From positions 62,001-126,000 of the forward strand of contig NZ_JACOQI010000004.1 of assembly GCF_014297285.1 (NCBI RefSeq): 64,000 nt of DNA, read 5' to 3'. The stretch is from Dysosmobacter segnis. GTDB taxonomy: Bacteria; Bacillota; Clostridia; Oscillospirales; Oscillospiraceae. The position numbers and the translations under genes are program-made. Below are positions 2,518 through 61,246 of the stretch, piece by piece. The notes below the pieces were generated by a model that searched no databases, was not told the origin of the DNA, and saw only the letters and a list, made by a program, of their open reading frames with translations. Positions within the stretch are counted from its first letter, which is position 1. Each line of letters opens with the position of its first letter.

Positions 2518-3174
2518 TTATTTTTCCATGGCCTTTACGGCCTTCACGATGCGGCTGGTGCCCAGACGGGAAGCCCCCAGATTGATGAAATCCTCCGCAT
2601 CCTGCAAATTGGCGATGCCGCCGGCAGCCTTGATCTTCACATTGGAGCCCACGTGCTTGGCGAACAGGGCCACGTCCTCACGGGTGGCGCCGCCCCCGCC
2701 GAAGCCGGTGGAGGTCTTGATGTAGTCCGCACCGGAGGCGGTGACGATCTCGCACAGCTTGATCTTCTCCTCATCGGTGAGGAAGCAGCACTCGATGATG
2801 ACCTTCAGCAGCTTGCCGCGGCAGGCCTCCTTTATGGCCTTGATCTCCGAGAGCAGCTCGTCCCATTTCCGGTCCTTCACCCAGCCGAGGTTGATGACCA
2901 TGTCCACTTCCTCCGCGCCGTTGCTCACGGCGTCGGCAGCCATGAAGCACTTGGCTGCGGTGGTGTCATAGCCGTTGGGGAAGCCGATGACGGTGCAGAT
3001 AGGCAGCTTGCCCGCCACATACTCCGCCGCCTGCTTCACATAGCTGGCGGGGATGCACGCGCTGGCGCAGCCGTACTTCATGCCGTCATCGCAGATGGCC
3101 TTGATCTCGTCCCAGGTGGCCGTCTGGGCCAGAAGCGTGTGATCGCACTTGCTCAAAATGTCTTTCAGTTCCAT
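2518..3174 (-). CDS. deoC: deoxyribose-phosphate aldolase
   Basis: Class I aldolase that cleaves 2-deoxyribose-5-phosphate into glyceraldehyde-3-phosphate and acetaldehyde in deoxynucleoside breakdown. The 218 residues form one TIM barrel. The Schiff-base lysine lies in YIKTSTGFG and the second catalytic lysine in VKIKAAGGI; both segments are intact. It is the first gene of the deoC-deoD operon, with a TAAGGAGTG ribosome-binding site and its own promoter. Phosphate-rich sugar products would enter glycolysis. Confidence 0.95.
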
Positions 3175-3223: not shown

Positions 3224-3252
3224 ATCATACCAGTTTTTTTGATTGCTGTCTA
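3224..3252 (-). promoter_or_regulatory. promoter of deoC-deoD
   Basis: Minus-strand TAGACA (3247-3252) and TATGAT (3224-3229) are spaced by 17 bases, about 50 bases before the deoC start. The promoter lies back to back with that of the protease gene on the other strand. I see no clear DeoR-type palindrome. Confidence 0.65.
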
Positions 3253-3292
3253 CCGTCCATCTCCCCCCTCTTTTGCCCAACGCTCCGGCGTC

Positions 3293-3321
3293 TTGCAATC
3301 CGGTCCATTCGGTGCTACAAT
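3293..3321 (+). promoter_or_regulatory. promoter of the SLH protease gene
   Basis: TTGCAA (3293-3298) and TACAAT (3316-3321) are separated by 17 bases and sit 32 bases before the ATG at 3354. Confidence 0.65.
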
Positions 3322-3353
3322 GTAGGCCACCAAATCCAAAAGGAGCCTTTTTC

Positions 3354-4646
3354 ATGAAAAAACAACTGTTATCCGCGCTGTGCGCGGTGATGCTTCTCAT
3401 CTGCGCCGTCCCCATGGCCAGCGCCCAGACCGGGGATGCTGCCCGCCGGGCCGATGCCCTGACGGTGCTGCATCTGCTCTCCGAAGATCCTGGCCGTGAC
3501 CTGACCGCTCCCGCTACCCGTGCTCAGGCCGCCGTGCTGCTGGTCCGTCTGGCCGGCGGCGAGAAAAAGCCGGACACCGACGGCTGGTTTGCCGGTTTCC
3601 GGGATGTGCCGGACTGGGCCCGCACCGCTGTGAACTACGCCAACCGCCGGGGCTGGATCTCCGGCGTCAGCAACGTACAGTTTGATCCCAACGGTCACTT
3701 GAACGCCGACGCCTGGTGTGCTATGCTGCTGCGGATGCTGGGCTACAGCGACAAGACCGGGGACTTTGAGATCTCCGACGCCGCAGCCTTCGCCTGGCGG
3801 ATCGGACTCACCGGCCGCCAGCTAATTGGCATCCTCTCCATGGGCGATCTGGCGGAAGCCATTTATGACGCGCTGGATTTCTGTTATAAGGGAACGGAAA
3901 CAACGGTGCTCTCCCGCCTGATGGACCTCGGCGTCTGCACTGCCTCCGCCGCCAACGCTCTGGGCCTGCTGAACAAGGACTATACCGCCCGCCAGCTGGC
4001 GGACCGCTACCTCTCCGCCGCCTTCCAGCTCAGCCTGTATGAGACAGAGGAGCAGGTCCACGATGAGGTCTCCTCCGCCGACGCCAGCGGCTTCTTCATC
4101 AGCGCCGACGGTCTGGCCGTCACCAACTATCACTCCATCGAAGATTCCATCAAGGCCACCGCCACCCTCCTCAACGGAGAAACCTACGAGGTAGAGCGGG
4201 TCCTCTACTACGATACCGGTATCGACATCGCCGTGATCAAGGTCTCCCGGACCAATCAGTCCCGCCGCACCACCTCCGCCTTCAACCATCTATGTCTGGT
4301 GGGCACGGCGGACATCCGCCCCGGCGATCCGGTGTACGCCATCGGCAACCCTCTGGGTCTGGGGCTGGCCATCAGCTCCGGCATCATCGGCTCCACCGCT
4401 CATGAGCTGGACCGTTATGCCCTGCCCTGCATTGTCAACTCCGCCGACATTTCCCGGGGCAGCAGCGGCGGCGCGCTGATGAACGCCCACGGTCAGGTCA
4501 TCGGCGTCACCTCCGGCGCTTATACCTATGGCAACAATATGTATCTGGCTGTCCCTGTGGACCCGGTGATGGCCGCCGACCTGACGGTTTCCGGCTGGAC
4601 CTTGAAGGAGGTCAAGGCCATCGAAGCCGCCAAGGGCAAGGACTGA
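3354..4646 (+). CDS. secreted trypsin-like serine protease with SLH-like N-terminal region
   Basis: A 430-residue exported protein. Residues 1-24 are a signal peptide ending in ASAQ. Residues 28-205 look like degenerate S-layer homology repeats (ATRAQAAVLLVRLAGG, then FRDVPDWARTAVNYANRRGWISG), suggesting attachment to the cell wall. The rest is an S1C/HtrA-like protease domain with the full triad: His260 in TNYH, Asp291 in GIDIAVIKV and Ser371 in GSSGGA. No PDZ domain follows. The ATG at 3354 is chosen because it has AAAGGAGCC eight bases upstream and opens the signal peptide; the longer frame has none. Its substrate is unknown. It is followed 28 bases later by a lipoprotein gene in the same direction. 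Confidence 0.85.
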   Translation: MKKQLLSALCAVMLLICAVPMASAQTGDAARRADALTVLHLLSEDPGRDLTAPATRAQAAVLLVRLAGGEKKPDTDGWFAGFRDVPDWARTAVNYANRRGWISGVSNVQFDPNGHLNADAWCAMLLRMLGYSDKTGDFEISDAAAFAWRIGLTGRQLIGILSMGDLAEAIYDALDFCYKGTETTVLSRLMDLGVCTASAANALGLLNKDYTARQLADRYLSAAFQLSLYETEEQVHDEVSSADASGFFISADGLAVTNYHSIEDSIKATATLLNGETYEVERVLYYDTGIDIAVIKVSRTNQSRRTTSAFNHLCLVGTADIRPGDPVYAIGNPLGLGLAISSGIIGSTAHELDRYALPCIVNSADISRGSSGGALMNAHGQVIGVTSGAYTYGNNMYLAVPVDPVMAADLTVSGWTLKEVKAIEAAKGKD

Positions 4647-6931: not shown

Positions 6932-9697
6932 TTAGACCTCGCCGAAGTCAGCGCACTTTGCGATCACGCTGGCGCAGCGGGGGCACAGGCCGTTCTCGTC
7001 CGCTGCGGTGCTGTGCTTCCAGCAACGGGGGCACTTGGTGCCGGCAGCCTCGCTGACGGAAACCGCCAGCTCGCCGCCCACAGTGACCTCCACCTGGGAG
7101 ACGATCAGCAGGTCCGCCAGAGCGGCTGCGTCCATCTCCGCCAGGAAGGCGTCCTCGGCGGGGACCGTCAGGGCCACATCGGCCTCCAGGCTCTTGCCGA
7201 TCTTCTTCTCGGCACGGGCGGTCTCCAGCGCGCCGTTGACGGCGTCGCGGACCTCGATGATCTTTTCCCACTTGGCCATCTCGTCAGCGGAGAGAGCGTA
7301 GTCGGCAAACACACCGTTCATATCGTTGAACAGCACGTTCCGGCCATCGTCGCCCGCCTTGTGGGGCATGGCCAGCCAGATCTCGTCACCGGTGAAGCAC
7401 AGGATGGGAGCCATGATCTTTGTGATGGTATCCAGGATCAGGTACAGGGCTGTCTGGGCGCTGCGGCGGGCCAGACCGTCGGTCTCATCGCAGTACAGCC
7501 GGTCCTTGATGATGTCCAGATAGAAGTTGGACAGCTCCACCACGCAGAAATCGTTGACGGCGTGGGTCACCACCAGGAACTCATAGTCGTTGTACGCCTG
7601 AGCGCACTTTTCGATCAGGGCGTTCAGACGGGTGACGGCCCAGCGATCCAGCTCCAGCATGTCGGCGGGAGCCACCAGATTGTTGGGATCAAAGCCGTCC
7701 AGGTTGCCCAGGCAGTACCGGGCGGTGTTGCGGAACTTCAGGTAGTTCTGAGAGAGCTGCTTGAAGATGGCGTCGGAGCAGCGCACGTCGGCGTGGTAAT
7801 CGGCAGAAGCCGCCCACAGACGCAGAATGTCCGCGCCGTACTTGTTGAAGATGTCAGCGGGGTCCACGCCGTTGCCCAGAGACTTGTGCATGGCCTTGCC
7901 CTCGCCGTCCACGGTCCAGCCGTGGGTGACGCACTCCTTGAAGGGCGCGCCGTTGCCGAAGGCGCCCACGGCGGTCAGCAGAGAGGATTGGAACCAGCCG
8001 CGGTACTGGTCGAGGCCCTCCAGATACATATCGGCAGGCCAGAAGTTCTGATCCCGCTTCATGGAGGCATAGTGGGTGGAGCCGGAGTCGAACCAGCCGT
8101 CCAGCGTGTCGGTCTCCTTCTCGAAGCCGCTCTTGCCGCCGCAGTGGGGGCAGGTCATACCGGCGGGCAGGAAATCGGCGGGGTCCTTGTCGAACCAGGC
8201 GTTGGAGCCTTCCTTGCCGAACATCTCGGAAATGGCGGCGATGGTCTCATCGGTCACCACAGGTTTGCCGCAGTCCTTGCAGTACACCACAGGGATGGGC
8301 AGACCCCACCGGCGCTGGCGGGAAATGCACCAGTCGGCGCGCTCCCGGATCATGCTCTTCATGCGGTCGATACCCCAGCCGGGGACCCAGCGAACCTCGT
8401 CGCAGGCGGCGCAGGCCTCGTCCTTGAAAGCGTCCACGGAGCAGAACCACTGGGGGGTGGCCCGGAAGATGATGGGCTTCTTGCAGCGCCAGCAATGGGG
8501 ATAGCTGTGGACGATTTCCTCGCTGGCCAGCAGAGCGCCGGACTCCTTCATATCCTTCAGGATGACAGGGTTGGACTCCTCCACCACCATCCCGGCGTAC
8601 TTGCCGGCATAGTCGGTGTGGCGGCCCTGATCGTCCACAGGCACCACCATGTCCATGCCGTAGCGCTTGCAGGTCTGGTAGTCATCCGCGCCGAAGCCGG
8701 GAGCGGTGTGGACGCAGCCGGTACCGGAATCCATGGTAACATAATCGGCCAGCACCAGACGGCTGGTCTTGGGCAGGAAGGGATGGTCCGCCAGCATATT
8801 CTCAAAGAAGGCGCCCTCGTGGGTCTCCACGATCTCGTAATCGGAGATGCCCGCCACGCCCATCACCTTGTCGGTGAGGGCCTCAGCCATGATATACATC
8901 TCGCCGTTGCCGTTGTTCTTCACCACGGCATAGCTCTCGGAGGGATGCAGCGCGATGGCCAGGTTGCCGGGCAGGGTCCAGATGGTGGTGGTCCAGATCA
9001 CGAAGTTCAGCTTGGACTTGTCCAGATGGCTCAGCTTGCCCTGATCGTCATGCATGGGGAACTTCACATACACGGTGGTGCAGGGATCATCCTGATACTC
9101 GATCTCAGCCTCAGCCAGAGCGGTCTCGTCATGGTAGCACCAGTACACGGGCTTCAGGCCCTTGTAGATGTAGCCCTTCTTGTACATCTCGCCAAAGACC
9201 TTGACCTCCTCGGCCTCAAAGCTGGGGTTCATGGTCTTGTAGGGGTGTTCCCAGTCGGCCACCACGCCCAGGCGCTTGAATCCCTCCATCTGGATGCCGA
9301 TATACTTTTCGGCATAGGCGTGGCAGGCGGTACGGAAGTCAGACACGCTCATGGCCTTGCGGTTGAGCTTCTGCTCCTTGATGATGGCGCTCTCGATGGG
9401 CATACCGTGGTTGTCCCAGCCGGGGATATAGGGTGTGTACCGGCCACGCATGGCGTAGGACCGGACGATGATGTCCTTCAGGGACTTGTTCAGGGCGTGG
9501 CCCATGTGGAGGCTGCCGTTGGAGAACGGAGGGCCGTCGTGAAGGGAGAAGCGGGGCTTGCCCTCATTCTTCTTCAGCAGCTCGTTGTAGAGGTCCATGT
9601 CCTCCCAGCGCTTGAGCATCTCCGGCTCCCGCTTGGGCAGACCCGCCCGCATGGGGAAGTCGGTCTTGGGCAGATTGATGGTCTTGTTGTAATCCAT
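6932..9697 (-). CDS. ileS: isoleucyl-tRNA synthetase
   Basis: Class Ia synthetase that charges tRNA-Ile; 921 residues, the normal size for the bacterial housekeeping form. The HIGH motif is HMGH at residues 64-67 (PPFSNGSLHMGH). The region of the KMSKS loop reads GKAMHKSLGN near residue 600, keeping the second lysine and serine but changing the first residues. The editing domain lies between, and the C-terminus has the two Cys pairs of a zinc-binding module (CPRCWKH and CPRC). The gene follows a small zinc-ribbon gene by 28 bases, and both lie behind an Ile-type T-box, so expression should rise when uncharged tRNA-Ile accumulates. Confidence 0.95.
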   Translation of the reverse strand: MDYNKTINLPKTDFPMRAGLPKREPEMLKRWEDMDLYNELLKKNEGKPRFSLHDGPPFSNGSLHMGHALNKSLKDIIVRSYAMRGRYTPYIPGWDNHGMPIESAIIKEQKLNRKAMSVSDFRTACHAYAEKYIGIQMEGFKRLGVVADWEHPYKTMNPSFEAEEVKVFGEMYKKGYIYKGLKPVYWCYHDETALAEAEIEYQDDPCTTVYVKFPMHDDQGKLSHLDKSKLNFVIWTTTIWTLPGNLAIALHPSESYAVVKNNGNGEMYIMAEALTDKVMGVAGISDYEIVETHEGAFFENMLADHPFLPKTSRLVLADYVTMDSGTGCVHTAPGFGADDYQTCKRYGMDMVVPVDDQGRHTDYAGKYAGMVVEESNPVILKDMKESGALLASEEIVHSYPHCWRCKKPIIFRATPQWFCSVDAFKDEACAACDEVRWVPGWGIDRMKSMIRERADWCISRQRRWGLPIPVVYCKDCGKPVVTDETIAAISEMFGKEGSNAWFDKDPADFLPAGMTCPHCGGKSGFEKETDTLDGWFDSGSTHYASMKRDQNFWPADMYLEGLDQYRGWFQSSLLTAVGAFGNGAPFKECVTHGWTVDGEGKAMHKSLGNGVDPADIFNKYGADILRLWAASADYHADVRCSDAIFKQLSQNYLKFRNTARYCLGNLDGFDPNNLVAPADMLELDRWAVTRLNALIEKCAQAYNDYEFLVVTHAVNDFCVVELSNFYLDIIKDRLYCDETDGLARRSAQTALYLILDTITKIMAPILCFTGDEIWLAMPHKAGDDGRNVLFNDMNGVFADYALSADEMAKWEKIIEVRDAVNGALETARAEKKIGKSLEADVALTVPAEDAFLAEMDAAALADLLIVSQVEVTVGGELAVSVSEAAGTKCPRCWKHSTAADENGLCPRCASVIAKCADFGEV

Positions 9698-9997: not shown

Positions 9998-10282
9998 AAA
10001 CAAAAAACGCTTTGCCTCTGAACTCAGAGACAAAGCGTTTGAAAACACTCTGCGGTACCACTCTTCTTGCCGGTCCCCTTGCGGAGCGCGGCCACTCACG
10101 CCTGCCATTACAGGCTGACGGAATAACGCCCGTCACACGTCCACGCTTACTCGCGTCGTCTTTCAGCAGGAGGCTCCAAGGTGATTTTCACCGCCGCGCC
10201 TGTCCGCCTCGCACCAAACGGCGGCTCTCTTTACAGACTTTCGACCGGCTACTCTTCCTTTTCTTCGCCAAATATCCAGTTA
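9998..10282 (-). promoter_or_regulatory. T-box riboswitch, isoleucine specifier
   Basis: The minus-strand leader holds the canonical T-box (GAGTGGTACCGCAGAG, 10050-10065), a GAGTA motif near its start and the GGTGCGA/AGAGAG elements of stem I. The specifier triplet reads ATC (10183-10185) in the usual setting GAAAATCACCTTGGAG, which is an isoleucine codon. A terminator follows: arms around AAACGCTTTGTCTCTGA with TTTTTTGTTTT (10000-10040). Uncharged tRNA-Ile would favour the antiterminator and let transcription run into the zinc-ribbon gene and ileS. Confidence 0.9.
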
Positions 10283-10429: not shown

Positions 10430-12574
10430 TTACTTTGCGGCGGTCATTCCGACGAAACGAACCAGGATCACAGCGGCCTGTGCCCGGGTTGCCGTCCCCT
10501 TGGGAGACAGCGTCGCATTGGTGGTGCCGCCGATCAGGCCGCTGCCCACAGCCCACTGCAGAGCAGGCACCGCATACTGGCCAACGCTCTGGAAATCCTT
10601 GTAGCTCAGCAGATTGGTGTCCTCACCCACACTGATGTCCGCGCCGTTGGCCTTGGCGTAGCGGTACAGAATAGCAGCCAGCTGCTCACGGGTGATGGCA
10701 CGGTTGGGCGCGAAGGTGCCGTCGGCATAGCCGCCCACGATCTCCTTGCCGGAGGCCCACTTTACGGCATCAGCATAGTACGCGCCGTTGTCCACATCGG
10801 AAAAGCCGGTAGTATTGGCAGTAACAGCGGGGCTGCCGGCCATACGGTACAGCATCGCCACCACCTGACCACGGGTCAGGGTACCGGCGGGGCTGAATGT
10901 GGTGTTGGAGGTGCCGCCCATGATGCCGTCAGCATAGACCCGCGCCACTTCGCTGAAGCACCAGTCGGTGTTCTTCACATCCGTGAAGGGCAGCGTAGTG
11001 CTGAGGGTCTTCATCATTTCCTGTACCACGGATGCGGAGGTGTTGGAAGCCTCGGTGTAGTTAAAGGCATAGGTGTCGTGGGCAATGCCGTCTGCCTTAT
11101 CGCTCATGCAGCGCAGAATAGCGCAGGGTACGCCAAACTGATCGCAGACGCGGGCCACGGAAGCGCCCTCCATCTCACAGGCCAGTGCGTCGAACTTGGT
11201 CTGAAGCTCCTTGACATAGGATTCGCTGGAGATAAACTGGTCGCCGGTGGCGATCACGCCCTGATGGACCTTGGCAGAGCCCAGCACATCGCAGGCAGCG
11301 TTGTAAGCGATCTTGGAAAGGGTGCCATCCACGGGGATCATGCCGGTCTCCTGATTGCTGCCGGCTTCGCCGTTCCAAACGAAGCCGTTGTTGGTCTCAG
11401 TGCCGTAGTCATGCTGCACAAGGCTGGTGCCGATGACCATGTCCATCACGTTCACGTCATCGCCCACGCCGCCGGCAATGCCGGTAAAGACAACGCCCTT
11501 GACCGTGAAGTTATTCAGCAGGGCCGCGGTATAGTTGGCAGAGAGGACCTTGCCGACGCCGGCCTGAACCAGTACCACGTCCTCGCCATTGAGCTTACCC
11601 ACATAGTAGGTCTTGCTTCCGATCACGGTTTCCTTCTGGATGTCGGCGGCATCCACCAGCGCCTTCAGCTCCACGCTCATGGCGCTGATGATGGCGGTAC
11701 GGGGCGTGGTGTCCTTTGCTGCGACATCCTTGGCAGCAGGAAGCGCGACCCGATCCTTGGCAATGGTGTTCAGCATTTCCTTCACCACAGAGGCGGAGGT
11801 ATTGGAAGCCTCAGTGTAGTTGAAGGCATAGGTATCATGGGCAATGCCGTCGGCCTTGTCGCTCATGCAGCGCAGAATGGCGCAGGGCACATGGAACTCG
11901 TCTGCCACGCGGGCCACGGAAGCGCCCTCCATCTCGCAGGCCAGTGCGTTGAACTTGGTCTGAAGTTCCTTGACATAGGACTCGCTGGAAATGAACTGGT
12001 CGCCGGTGGCGATCACGCCCTGATGGACCTTCTCCGCGCCCAGCACGGTGCAGGCAGAATCATAAGCGATCTTGGAAAGGCTCTCATCCACAGGGATCAT
12101 GCCGGTCTCCTGATTGCTGCCGGCCTTGCCGTTCCACTCAAAGCCGCTGTTGGTCTCGGTGCCGTAGTCATGCTGCACCAACTCGGTGGCAATGACCATG
12201 TCCATCACGTTCACGTCATCGCCCACGCCGCCGGCAATGCCGGTAAAGACGATGCCGCCCACATGATAGGTGTCGATGAGGGTCTCAGCGCAGGACGCCG
12301 CCAGCACCTTGCCGATACCGGCCTTGACCAGCACCACATCCACGCCGTTGAGGACGCCCTCGTAAAAGGTGTTGCCTGCGATCTCTTCTGTCTTGGAGAT
12401 CTTGGTCGCCTCCACCAGCGCGTTCAGTTCCACGCTCATAGCGCTGACGATACCCAGCGGGCCCTCAGCCTGCGCGGCCCCCGTCTGATCCGCAGCTGCG
12501 GCGGAAACCCCCAGAGATACCGTCATGACAATGACGAGCATCAGGGACAGGGTCTTTTGGAAGAATCGGTTCAT
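10430..12574 (-). CDS. secreted protein with two MTA/SAH-nucleosidase-like domains and three SLH repeats
   Basis: A 714-residue exported protein. Residues 1-28 are a signal peptide. Residues 41-272 and 294-525 are two very similar domains of the purine nucleoside phosphorylase superfamily, closest by eye to 5'-methylthioadenosine/S-adenosylhomocysteine nucleosidase. Both keep the expected catalytic residues: Glu49, Met215-Glu216 and Asp239 in the first; Glu302, Met468-Glu469 and Asp492 in the second. Residues 528-580, 588-640 and 655-710 are S-layer homology repeats (for example TFSPAGTLTRGQVVAMLYRM), which bind cell-wall polymers. The enzyme is therefore probably displayed on the cell surface and may split extracellular nucleosides or nucleoside-like signals. 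MTAN enzymes are normally cytoplasmic, so the substrate is uncertain. The two domain-coding halves are a recent tandem duplication. It has its own promoter and terminator. Confidence 0.88.
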   Translation of the reverse strand: MNRFFQKTLSLMLVIVMTVSLGVSAAAADQTGAAQAEGPLGIVSAMSVELNALVEATKISKTEEIAGNTFYEGVLNGVDVVLVKAGIGKVLAASCAETLIDTYHVGGIVFTGIAGGVGDDVNVMDMVIATELVQHDYGTETNSGFEWNGKAGSNQETGMIPVDESLSKIAYDSACTVLGAEKVHQGVIATGDQFISSESYVKELQTKFNALACEMEGASVARVADEFHVPCAILRCMSDKADGIAHDTYAFNYTEASNTSASVVKEMLNTIAKDRVALPAAKDVAAKDTTPRTAIISAMSVELKALVDAADIQKETVIGSKTYYVGKLNGEDVVLVQAGVGKVLSANYTAALLNNFTVKGVVFTGIAGGVGDDVNVMDMVIGTSLVQHDYGTETNNGFVWNGEAGSNQETGMIPVDGTLSKIAYNAACDVLGSAKVHQGVIATGDQFISSESYVKELQTKFDALACEMEGASVARVCDQFGVPCAILRCMSDKADGIAHDTYAFNYTEASNTSASVVQEMMKTLSTTLPFTDVKNTDWCFSEVARVYADGIMGGTSNTTFSPAGTLTRGQVVAMLYRMAGSPAVTANTTGFSDVDNGAYYADAVKWASGKEIVGGYADGTFAPNRAITREQLAAILYRYAKANGADISVGEDTNLLSYKDFQSVGQYAVPALQWAVGSGLIGGTTNATLSPKGTATRAQAAVILVRFVGMTAAK

Positions 12575-12610
12575 GCTTCTCTCTACCTCCGATTTAAAAG
12601 TGATACCTTT

Positions 12611-12639
12611 ATCATACTATCAGTCCCTTTCAGAAGCAA
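12611..12639 (-). promoter_or_regulatory. promoter of the tandem nucleosidase-SLH gene
   Basis: TTGCTT (12634-12639) and TATGAT (12611-12616) with a 17-base spacer on the minus strand, about 36 bases before the start codon, which itself has GGAGGTAGAG. Confidence 0.65.
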
Positions 12640-12717
12640 TCCCAAACAAACAGAATCGGTTCCTCTTTTTTTCGATTTATTTGTTGTTTTTTCATATAGA
12701 TCATCCTGCTCTTTGAC

Positions 12718-12762
12718 GCAAAAAAGGGTATGACCTTCCGCTGATGGCGGAAGATCATACCC
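12718..12762 (-). terminator. terminator after the small gene at 12780
   Basis: A 16-base near-perfect stem (GGGTATGA-CTTCCGC and complement) with a 4-base loop is followed by TTTTTT on the minus strand. Confidence 0.8.
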
Positions 12763-12779
12763 GCTTGATAAGCTTCATG

Positions 12780-12950
12780 TCACTGATACCGGTAGAGCTG
12801 GGCCGTGTATCCGTCGATACACCGCAAAAACATCTCCCGGTCCCGGAATTCCATCAGTTGAGAACCGGCCTCCTCATGAAAGGACACCACACGGCGCTGG
12901 GTATCTACCCACAGCTTCCAGATCGGTTCCCTGGTCATTGTCGTTTCCAT
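12780..12950 (-). CDS. small hypothetical protein
   Basis: A 56-residue acidic/basic mixed protein (METTMTREPIWKLWVD onwards) with no recognised domain and no membrane segment. AAGGAGAAGCACGCACT precedes the ATG at 12950; an upstream in-frame ATG at 12971, with another AAGGAG, would add seven residues. The following strong terminator supports a real transcript. Its pattern (short beta-strand segments, RVVSFHEEAGSQLMEF) is typical of small host-encoded Clostridia proteins of unknown role. Confidence 0.55.
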   Translation of the reverse strand: METTMTREPIWKLWVDTQRRVVSFHEEAGSQLMEFRDREMFLRCIDGYTAQLYRYQ

Positions 12951-13079
12951 AGTGCGTGCTTCTCCTTTCATACACACATTCTCCTTCAGCGCCCCTTGGA
13001 GCGGTTTTTGTTCCTGTACCTATAAGACGATTTGAACACCGATTTTGTTGCACATTTTTCCAAAAAATTTCAAATTTTT

Positions 13080-13865
13080 TTAGGCCAGCAGAGGACGCAC
13101 CACCTGATCGTTCACCACGGCGAAGCTCTCCCGCAGGTAATAGTTGGCGCTGAGCCACCACCACGGCAGCTTCGCCGGGACCTGCACCACCCTGCCGGGT
13201 CCGGCGGTGTTCAGCAGCAGCCGCACCCGCCCCATGTGGAAATCGTTGGTGACGATGGCCACTGTTTTATGGTAGTCATCCGGCAGCAGCGCCAGAGAAT
13301 TTTGCAGATTCTGTCGGGTATTGGCAGACCGCTCCTCTAAGATCAGCCGCGCCGGGTCGATGCCCCGGGCCGTCAGCGCGTTATACATGGCCCGGGCTTC
13401 GGAGATGTCCTCCCCCGGCCCTTGTCCCCCGGACAGCACCGCCGGGACATGCGGATGCACCTTGAGATACCGCTCCGCCGCGTCAATGCGGGTTTGCAGG
13501 GCCACGGAGGGCGTGGTGCCGTTGACCCCGGCCCCCAGAACGATCACCGCGTCCGCCGGTTGGGCTGACTCGTCCCGGTGTCCGGCCCGGATGACCCAGA
13601 CCTCCACCGCCGACAAGCCCAGAACCAGCGCCGCCAGTCCTATTTGGGCGATCCGCAGCAAAATCTTCCACCCCCGGTGGCGGCGGCTCAACCGGCTCAG
13701 GCCCAGCAGCACCAGACAGACCACCGCCAGTCCCCAGCTCAGCTTTCCGGAAAAGCCCACCCCCGGCAGGCGTTGAAGCCCCAGCCCCAGCAGGCAGAAC
13801 GCCAGCGCCAGCGCCGCCGTCAGTCTTTCGGAGCGTTTCCACTCAAAAAACGTATGCTCATTCAT
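13080..13865 (-). CDS. YdcF family protein (DUF218), membrane
   Basis: A 261-residue membrane protein. The first 95 residues hold about three hydrophobic segments; the rest is a DUF218 domain (ADAVIVLGAGVNGTTPSVAL, AVLSGGQGPGEDISEARAM, EERSANTRQNL, NDFHMGR). The conserved SGG, E-A-M and ERSxNT motifs are all present. Relatives act on cell-envelope processes such as ElyC/SanA-type envelope maintenance, but no reaction is firmly assigned. It lies 70 bases after the large permease gene in the same direction; a hairpin sits between, so co-transcription is possible but uncertain. No clear ribosome-binding site precedes its ATG. Confidence 0.85.
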   Translation of the reverse strand: MNEHTFFEWKRSERLTAALALAFCLLGLGLQRLPGVGFSGKLSWGLAVVCLVLLGLSRLSRRHRGWKILLRIAQIGLAALVLGLSAVEVWVIRAGHRDESAQPADAVIVLGAGVNGTTPSVALQTRIDAAERYLKVHPHVPAVLSGGQGPGEDISEARAMYNALTARGIDPARLILEERSANTRQNLQNSLALLPDDYHKTVAIVTNDFHMGRVRLLLNTAGPGRVVQVPAKLPWWWLSANYYLRESFAVVNDQVVRPLLA

Positions 13866-61004: not shown

Positions 61005-61246
61005 TGCGCAGCAAAAAACGCCCTGAGCCTATTTTAGTAGGCTCAGGGCGAACATAATGTCCGTGGTTCCACCTGAATTCCCCGTTGGAAGCGGGGCACT
61101 TCGTTCCCGGTAACGGCGGGGTCCGGCGAAGCATTTCCGCTCCGCGGCTCCAGGGCGCCATCCGATGCTTTCCGGAGGAGCTTGCACCAACCGCTCCTTC
61201 TCTGAAACCGGATCCAGCAGGACTTCCCTGTCACAGCCTTTCACCC
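61005..61246 (-). promoter_or_regulatory. T-box riboswitch, glycine specifier
   Basis: The minus-strand leader ends with the T-box AATTCAGGTGGAACCACGGAC (61060-61080, shown in part) and a 12-base terminator stem (CGCCCTGAGCCT and complement) with six Ts (61012-61050). In stem I the specifier triplet reads GGC (61157-61159) in GATGGCGCCCTGGAG, a glycine codon. Uncharged tRNA-Gly would allow glyS transcription. Confidence 0.85.

Follow-up and report, generated by a model that had tools for sequence, protein, structure and literature searches.

The 64,000-nucleotide stretch of Dysosmobacter segnis analysed here (the window; contig NZ_JACOQI010000004.1, positions 62,001 to 126,000) encodes on its minus strand, at 10430..12574, a protein of 714 amino acids that combines a signal peptide, two domains of the 5'-methylthioadenosine/S-adenosylhomocysteine nucleosidase (MTAN) type and three S-layer homology (SLH) repeats. 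By curated family scores, active-site residues and fold this protein is an MTAN, and by sequence and fold it is an SLH protein. Our reading of the sequence, to which we assign a probability of roughly 0.6, is that it acts as a secreted, cell-wall-anchored MTAN-type N-glycosidase whose two halves pair internally and which would free adenine from extracellular 5'-modified adenosines. It is an unusual form of a known enzyme and does not amount to a novel system; the features that look new are the wall-anchored tandem, the fixed pairing of its halves, which is predicted with confidence, and the altered lid loop over the 5' pocket.

The open reading frame starts with ATG and runs for 714 codons, and Pfam recognised in its product the nucleoside phosphorylase superfamily twice (PF01048, E 3.8e-91) and SLH three times (E 1.4e-38). 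The N-terminus, MNRFFQKTLSLMLVIVMTVSLGVSAAAA, resembles a Sec-type signal peptide (residues 1-28, 12491..12574), with an n-region NRFFQK, a hydrophobic core and an Ala-rich end and without a lipobox, as judged by reading the sequence and by crude hydropathy scripts. Domain 1 (residues 37-275, 11750..12466) and domain 2 (residues 289-528, 10991..11710) were identified by Pfam, MTAN cut-offs, residue alignment and fold. A preliminary description of this DNA had proposed the same order of parts, which the reading frame, Pfam and the sequence itself bear out. Scored alone, the halves exceeded the cut-offs of both NCBIfam MTAN equivalogs, PRK05584 (219.0 and 215.8, cut-off 169) and TIGR01704 (122.6 and 112.5, cut-off 73.8). 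Two other assignments were rejected, namely DeoD-type purine nucleoside phosphorylase (45.3 and 43.9 against the TIGR00107 cut-off of 232.25) and futalosine hydrolase (91.3 and 100.8 against the TIGR03664 cut-off of 124.7).

The alignment with E. coli MTAN further confirmed that the expected catalytic residues are intact in each domain, since M9, E12, F151, E172, M173, E174, R193, S196 and D197 of the E. coli enzyme are matched in both halves (M46, E49, F194, E214, M215, E216, R235, S238 and D239 in domain 1; M299, E302, F447, E467, M468, E469, R488, S491 and D492 in domain 2). For the residues of this set other than E12 and D197, the functional roles are those that we presume them to have. 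The catalytic and nucleoside-binding residues were kept in 36/36 halves of 18 tandem proteins which, together with 17 single-domain proteins, had been picked from 120 listed matches and the fetched loci for residue counts and tree building; in P0040, a further relative outside this set, the key Asp is missing from the second half. The structure prediction suggested in the preliminary description was also in agreement, as both halves fold like MTAN when compared with known structures. Fold and residues would fit a pocket able to hold a nucleoside, the lack of which the preliminary description had named as a refutation. When the two halves were predicted in one chain, the predicted template modelling score (pTM) was 0.88, a high-confidence model that suggests a fixed pairing within the chain, and this pairing may be equivalent to the two-subunit MTAN dimer.

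Anchoring of the tandem MTAN at the surface is supported by homology. The three SLH repeats lie together at one end of the protein, and the genomes of the three relatives carrying the tandem SLH protein (G001, G002 and G003) contain 55, 55 and 30 SLH matches, respectively, with the wall-pyruvylation enzyme CsaB scoring above its cut-off in all three. A genome encoding a tandem MTAN without SLH repeats (G004) gave 42 SLH matches and no CsaB, and G005 and G006 had neither. After export through the Sec pathway, directed by the signal peptide, the protein would thus be held on pyruvylated wall polysaccharide by its SLH repeats. Compared to the S-layer protein Sap, it carries an enzyme in place of an S-layer lattice domain. 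In the open-access literature searched we found neither an SLH-anchored MTAN (PMC7549365, as far as its passages go, concerns other proteins) nor an S-layer of Dysosmobacter welbionis. Elsewhere in the window, a reading frame for a trypsin-like protease of 467 amino acids (3243-4646, plus strand) was matched weakly by phmmer with the SLH region of the tandem protein (E 3.3e-6) but has no Pfam SLH domain at E 0.001.

The preliminary description had called a displayed double enzyme unexpected because MTANs are cytoplasmic; that display of an MTAN is in itself unexpected is overstated in the light of two precedents. According to passages of PMC7557402, Bgp (BB0588) of Borrelia burgdorferi is exported and located at the surface, has MTAN activity and also binds glycosaminoglycans as a surface protein, and PMC6302742 describes a periplasmic MTAN beside the cytoplasmic one in Aeromonas hydrophila (PDB 5b7p/5b7q). 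The window protein would share with Bgp export, a surface location and MTAN activity; the Bgp passages mention neither SLH repeats nor a tandem. The Aeromonas enzyme is a single-domain, periplasmic protein of 22% identity, which the sequence search matched over approximately 90 residues. The dual role of Bgp (PMC7557402) raises the question whether the tandem protein could be a binding protein or adhesin that has kept the MTAN fold for a surface ligand or glycan. We consider this very improbable, because active-site residues kept in every one of the 36 halves go beyond what a pure binder would need and because Bgp is itself catalytically active.

Three proteins (P0056, P0096 and P0100) likewise combine SLH with MTAN in a single chain, but these start with an N-terminal DUF3089 part, continue with SLH repeats and end in one domain of the MTAN type, and the lid loop of P0056 is more like that of E. 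coli. Compared to E. coli MTAN (MtnN, also Pfs; 1jys), the window protein adds a signal peptide, an SLH anchor and a second domain per chain, and differs by S76 to I, A150 to Q, a lid loop of the form HDYG...GFxW and changes at F105 and P113. After the HD motif this loop reads HDYGTETN-GF-WNG in the window protein as compared to HDADVTAFGY in E. coli. Across the 36 tandem halves the position of F105 is occupied by D (32), K (2), S (1) or N (1), and that of P113 by A in 35, whereas five MTAN chains from the PDB all have F in the lid loop within an AF or SAF motif, those of two species being in register at the F105 position and the three H. pylori chains being gapped there. We take F105 and P113 to form a hydrophobic cover of the 5'-alkylthio group, a feature of specificity and not one that defines the family. 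Such a cover is not present in the tandem halves, and since both positions have changed, the specificity of the tandem enzyme may have shifted.

The same exported enzyme could act mainly on a plain nucleoside (adenosine or deoxyadenosine) made outside the cell from nucleotides, instead of on 5'-methylthioadenosine (MTA) or S-adenosylhomocysteine (SAH); the polar or charged residue at the F105 position in all 36 tandem halves, where E. coli has F and the five PDB chains AF or SAF, is consistent with this, as are the domain fusions found among exported relatives. Two of these (P0075 and P0121) join a signal-peptide-like start, an MTAN domain, a Metallophos domain and a 5'-nucleotidase C-terminal domain in one chain, which could cleave a nucleotide and then its nucleoside extracellularly. 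Other fusions with a signal-peptide-like start involve HAD (P0069), NUP (P0088), esterase (P0072), CotH (P0094) and copper-amine-oxidase N-terminal (P0067) domains. However, the fusions lie outside the tandem-SLH clade, the pocket role of F105 is our assumption, and the halves score above the MTAN cut-offs and far below that for phosphorylase families, so that we regard a plain nucleoside as an unlikely, though the most serious, alternative. As a separate observation, the domain joined to MTAN in P0088 (rescanned), P0081, P0092 and P0070 is NUP (PF06516), which Pfam names purine nucleoside permease.

On the other hand, the enzyme might serve to alter signalling and not to feed the cell, either by destroying extracellular MTA and SAH or by releasing S-ribosylhomocysteine. 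For the periplasmic A. hydrophila enzyme, a review suggests that certain environments can supply MTA, which might act there as a signalling molecule (PMC6302742). Signal removal nevertheless appears improbable to us, as neighbour clustering found no conserved genes beside the tandem gene and the domains fused to MTAN in relatives speak for nucleotide processing.

Returning to an anchored enzyme that frees adenine, we infer catalysis, substrate, location and pairing as follows: both active sites would hydrolyse the N-glycosidic bond of extracellular MTA, SAH and possibly 5'-deoxyadenosine, yielding adenine for uptake and a thioribose. Two findings slightly lower our confidence in this proposal. 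The fold match is common to MTAN and phosphorylases, and the signal of gene conversion, by which the paired halves would have been kept alike, was seen for the domain middle only.

The preliminary description had further regarded the halves as near-identical and derived from this a recent duplication with selection for dose. They are identical at 179/232 amino acids (77%) and at 81% of nucleotides, which is less than near-identity, and their synonymous divergence (dS) is 0.51 by NG86 over whole halves, a value far from the 2.59 given by YN00. In a tree of the 18 tandem proteins, the 17 single-domain proteins and E. coli MTAN, the 16 SLH-bearing tandems had their N halves in one cluster (support 0.88) and their C halves in another (0.97), while the two tandems without SLH repeats (P0044 and P0046) fell outside these clusters, each pairing its N half with its C half. 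Analysed by region, the domain separated 16/16 N halves from 16/16 C halves in its first third (E. coli 1-70). In the middle third the N and C halves of the same protein were nearest neighbours in 6/16 proteins, and in the last third neither the separation of N from C halves nor the pairing within proteins held.

Regional NG86 values, each resting on 68-82 codons, followed this pattern in part. For core residues 69-150 (12005..12250 in domain 1 and the matching 11246..11491 in domain 2), dS was 0.21-0.45 within genes at five loci including the window; the ten comparisons made between orthologues, which covered four loci and did not include the L001-L003 pair, gave 0.50-1.01. For residues 151-232, the dS within genes of L001-L003 (0.20-0.37) stayed under the values for their orthologues, which does not hold for the 0.62 of the window gene. 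In residues 1-68 the amino acid identity within genes (0.53-0.68) was lower than that between orthologues (0.71-0.87); here the contrast lies in amino acids and nonsynonymous divergence (dN), since the dS ranges within genes (0.38-1.25) and between orthologues (0.50-1.70) overlap. On half divergence, tree grouping and regional dS, a recent duplication was rejected, and selection for dose likewise finds no support. Because the first third separates N from C halves in the SLH-bearing tandems, the duplication is old and, on the sequences compared, predates the split of these relatives. The middle of the domain seems to have been kept alike by gene conversion, part of which signal repeat misassembly in metagenome data could mimic, and the first third seems to be specific to its position.

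Taken together, these results allow a tentative and, as a whole, doubtful proposal in which an exported clade of gut Clostridia and Spirochaetales with the HDYG...GFxW lid has shifted from MTA to another extracellular adenosine compound, one lineage having become a wall-anchored single-chain pseudo-dimer whose middle is gene-converted and whose pairing face is kept different.

The tandem form itself is narrowly distributed in the genomes searched. The near-identical cluster of the window protein (P0001) holds 2147 member sequences and the closest of 31 genome loci, in an uncultured Dysosmobacter metagenome-assembled genome (MAG; L001), is 76% identical. The tandem was found only in G001 both among 86 genomes of its genus and among the 200 genomes of a family sample, in which at most five candidates per genome were scored. 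Versions of 461-480 amino acids (P0032, P0036, P0051, P0052 and others) look as if one domain had been lost between the repeats, with natural deletion and short-read misassembly being indistinguishable, and in P0038 and P0054 the tandem gene is joined to a PF01012 domain, which may reflect assembly chimeras.

MAGs of Spirochaetales and Clostridia carry single-domain relatives at approximately 44-54% identity. According to a hydropathy script, a strongly hydrophobic stretch precedes the domain in 25/31 loci (L020-L022 are almost identical, so that not every locus counts as independent), and some of these have a lipoprotein-like Cys. L027, L031, P0104 and P0105 are without a clear signal peptide, L028 is truncated at a contig end, and in L004, L010 and L029 the N-terminus is extended further than the script could read through; in L010 (P0067) this extension is the copper-amine-oxidase N-terminal domain, and in P0046, the L004 protein, it has no Pfam name. 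The exported MTAN clade of Clostridia and Spirochaetales, in which fusions to 5'-nucleotidase, HAD or NUP domains sometimes occur, likewise looks new. G001 and G002 each encode, in addition, a short MTAN-like protein that lacks a signal peptide (L047 and L051), of which L047 scores above the TIGR01704 cut-off (84.2 against 73.8) and below that of PRK05584 (131.8 against 169). Hence, the exported protein of these genomes is probably an extra one and not the housekeeping enzyme.

The preliminary description had also linked the tandem gene to a scavenging system formed with nearby genes. Genes for a BMP protein (261-1499), a DeoD-type purine nucleoside phosphorylase (1792-2505) and deoC (2518-3174) are indeed present in the window, but 7.3 kb and several genes separate the end of the nearest one from the tandem gene, so that they form no operon with it and proximity is a weak argument. 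No gene conserved next to the tandem gene emerged from neighbour clustering, in which the downstream flanks of L001-L003 (5.2, 1.4 and 1.8 kb) stop short of genes at a distance of 7 kb, and within this range a conserved neighbourhood or operon with BMP, deoC and deoD was rejected. The class I tRNA synthetase gene next but one downstream (6932-9697), which we read as ileS, had no match in the same flanks, including the 5.2 kb of L001. Among the other loci, the window BMP matched only L011 and the window deoC only L015 and L018, all of them Spirochaetales loci with an exported single-domain relative, a sporadic pattern. In G002, contig 8 carries a PF01048 protein with an open frame of 295 amino acids (L048) near a homologue of the window tRNA synthetase, the tandem gene lying elsewhere in that genome.

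Two T-box leaders scored above the Rfam gathering score, both on the minus strand, one upstream of the tRNA synthetase gene (10023-10274) and one at 61041-61243. Just 5' of the tandem gene, and on the same strand, are a terminator-like hairpin (12726..12762), a kind of site that occurred five times in the scanned stretch where 3.8 were expected by chance, and a 63-codon reading frame (12780-12971). The hairpin hints, weakly, that the tandem gene may be its own transcript. A search for RNA elements at 12400-13200 returned none up to E 1, and a viral_contigs search for a viral origin gave no match.

With host and microbial cells as sources of extracellular MTA and SAH, a nucleosidase fixed to the wall could shape local levels of adenine and MTA. 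If our reading is true, some gut bacteria would obtain adenine from extracellular nucleosides by means of a wall-fixed enzyme, and exported MTANs would be commoner than the cases that we found in print, from Borrelia and Aeromonas, suggest. The tandem would, moreover, offer a clear example from nature of an ancient duplication fused into one chain, with homogenisation in one part and divergence in another.
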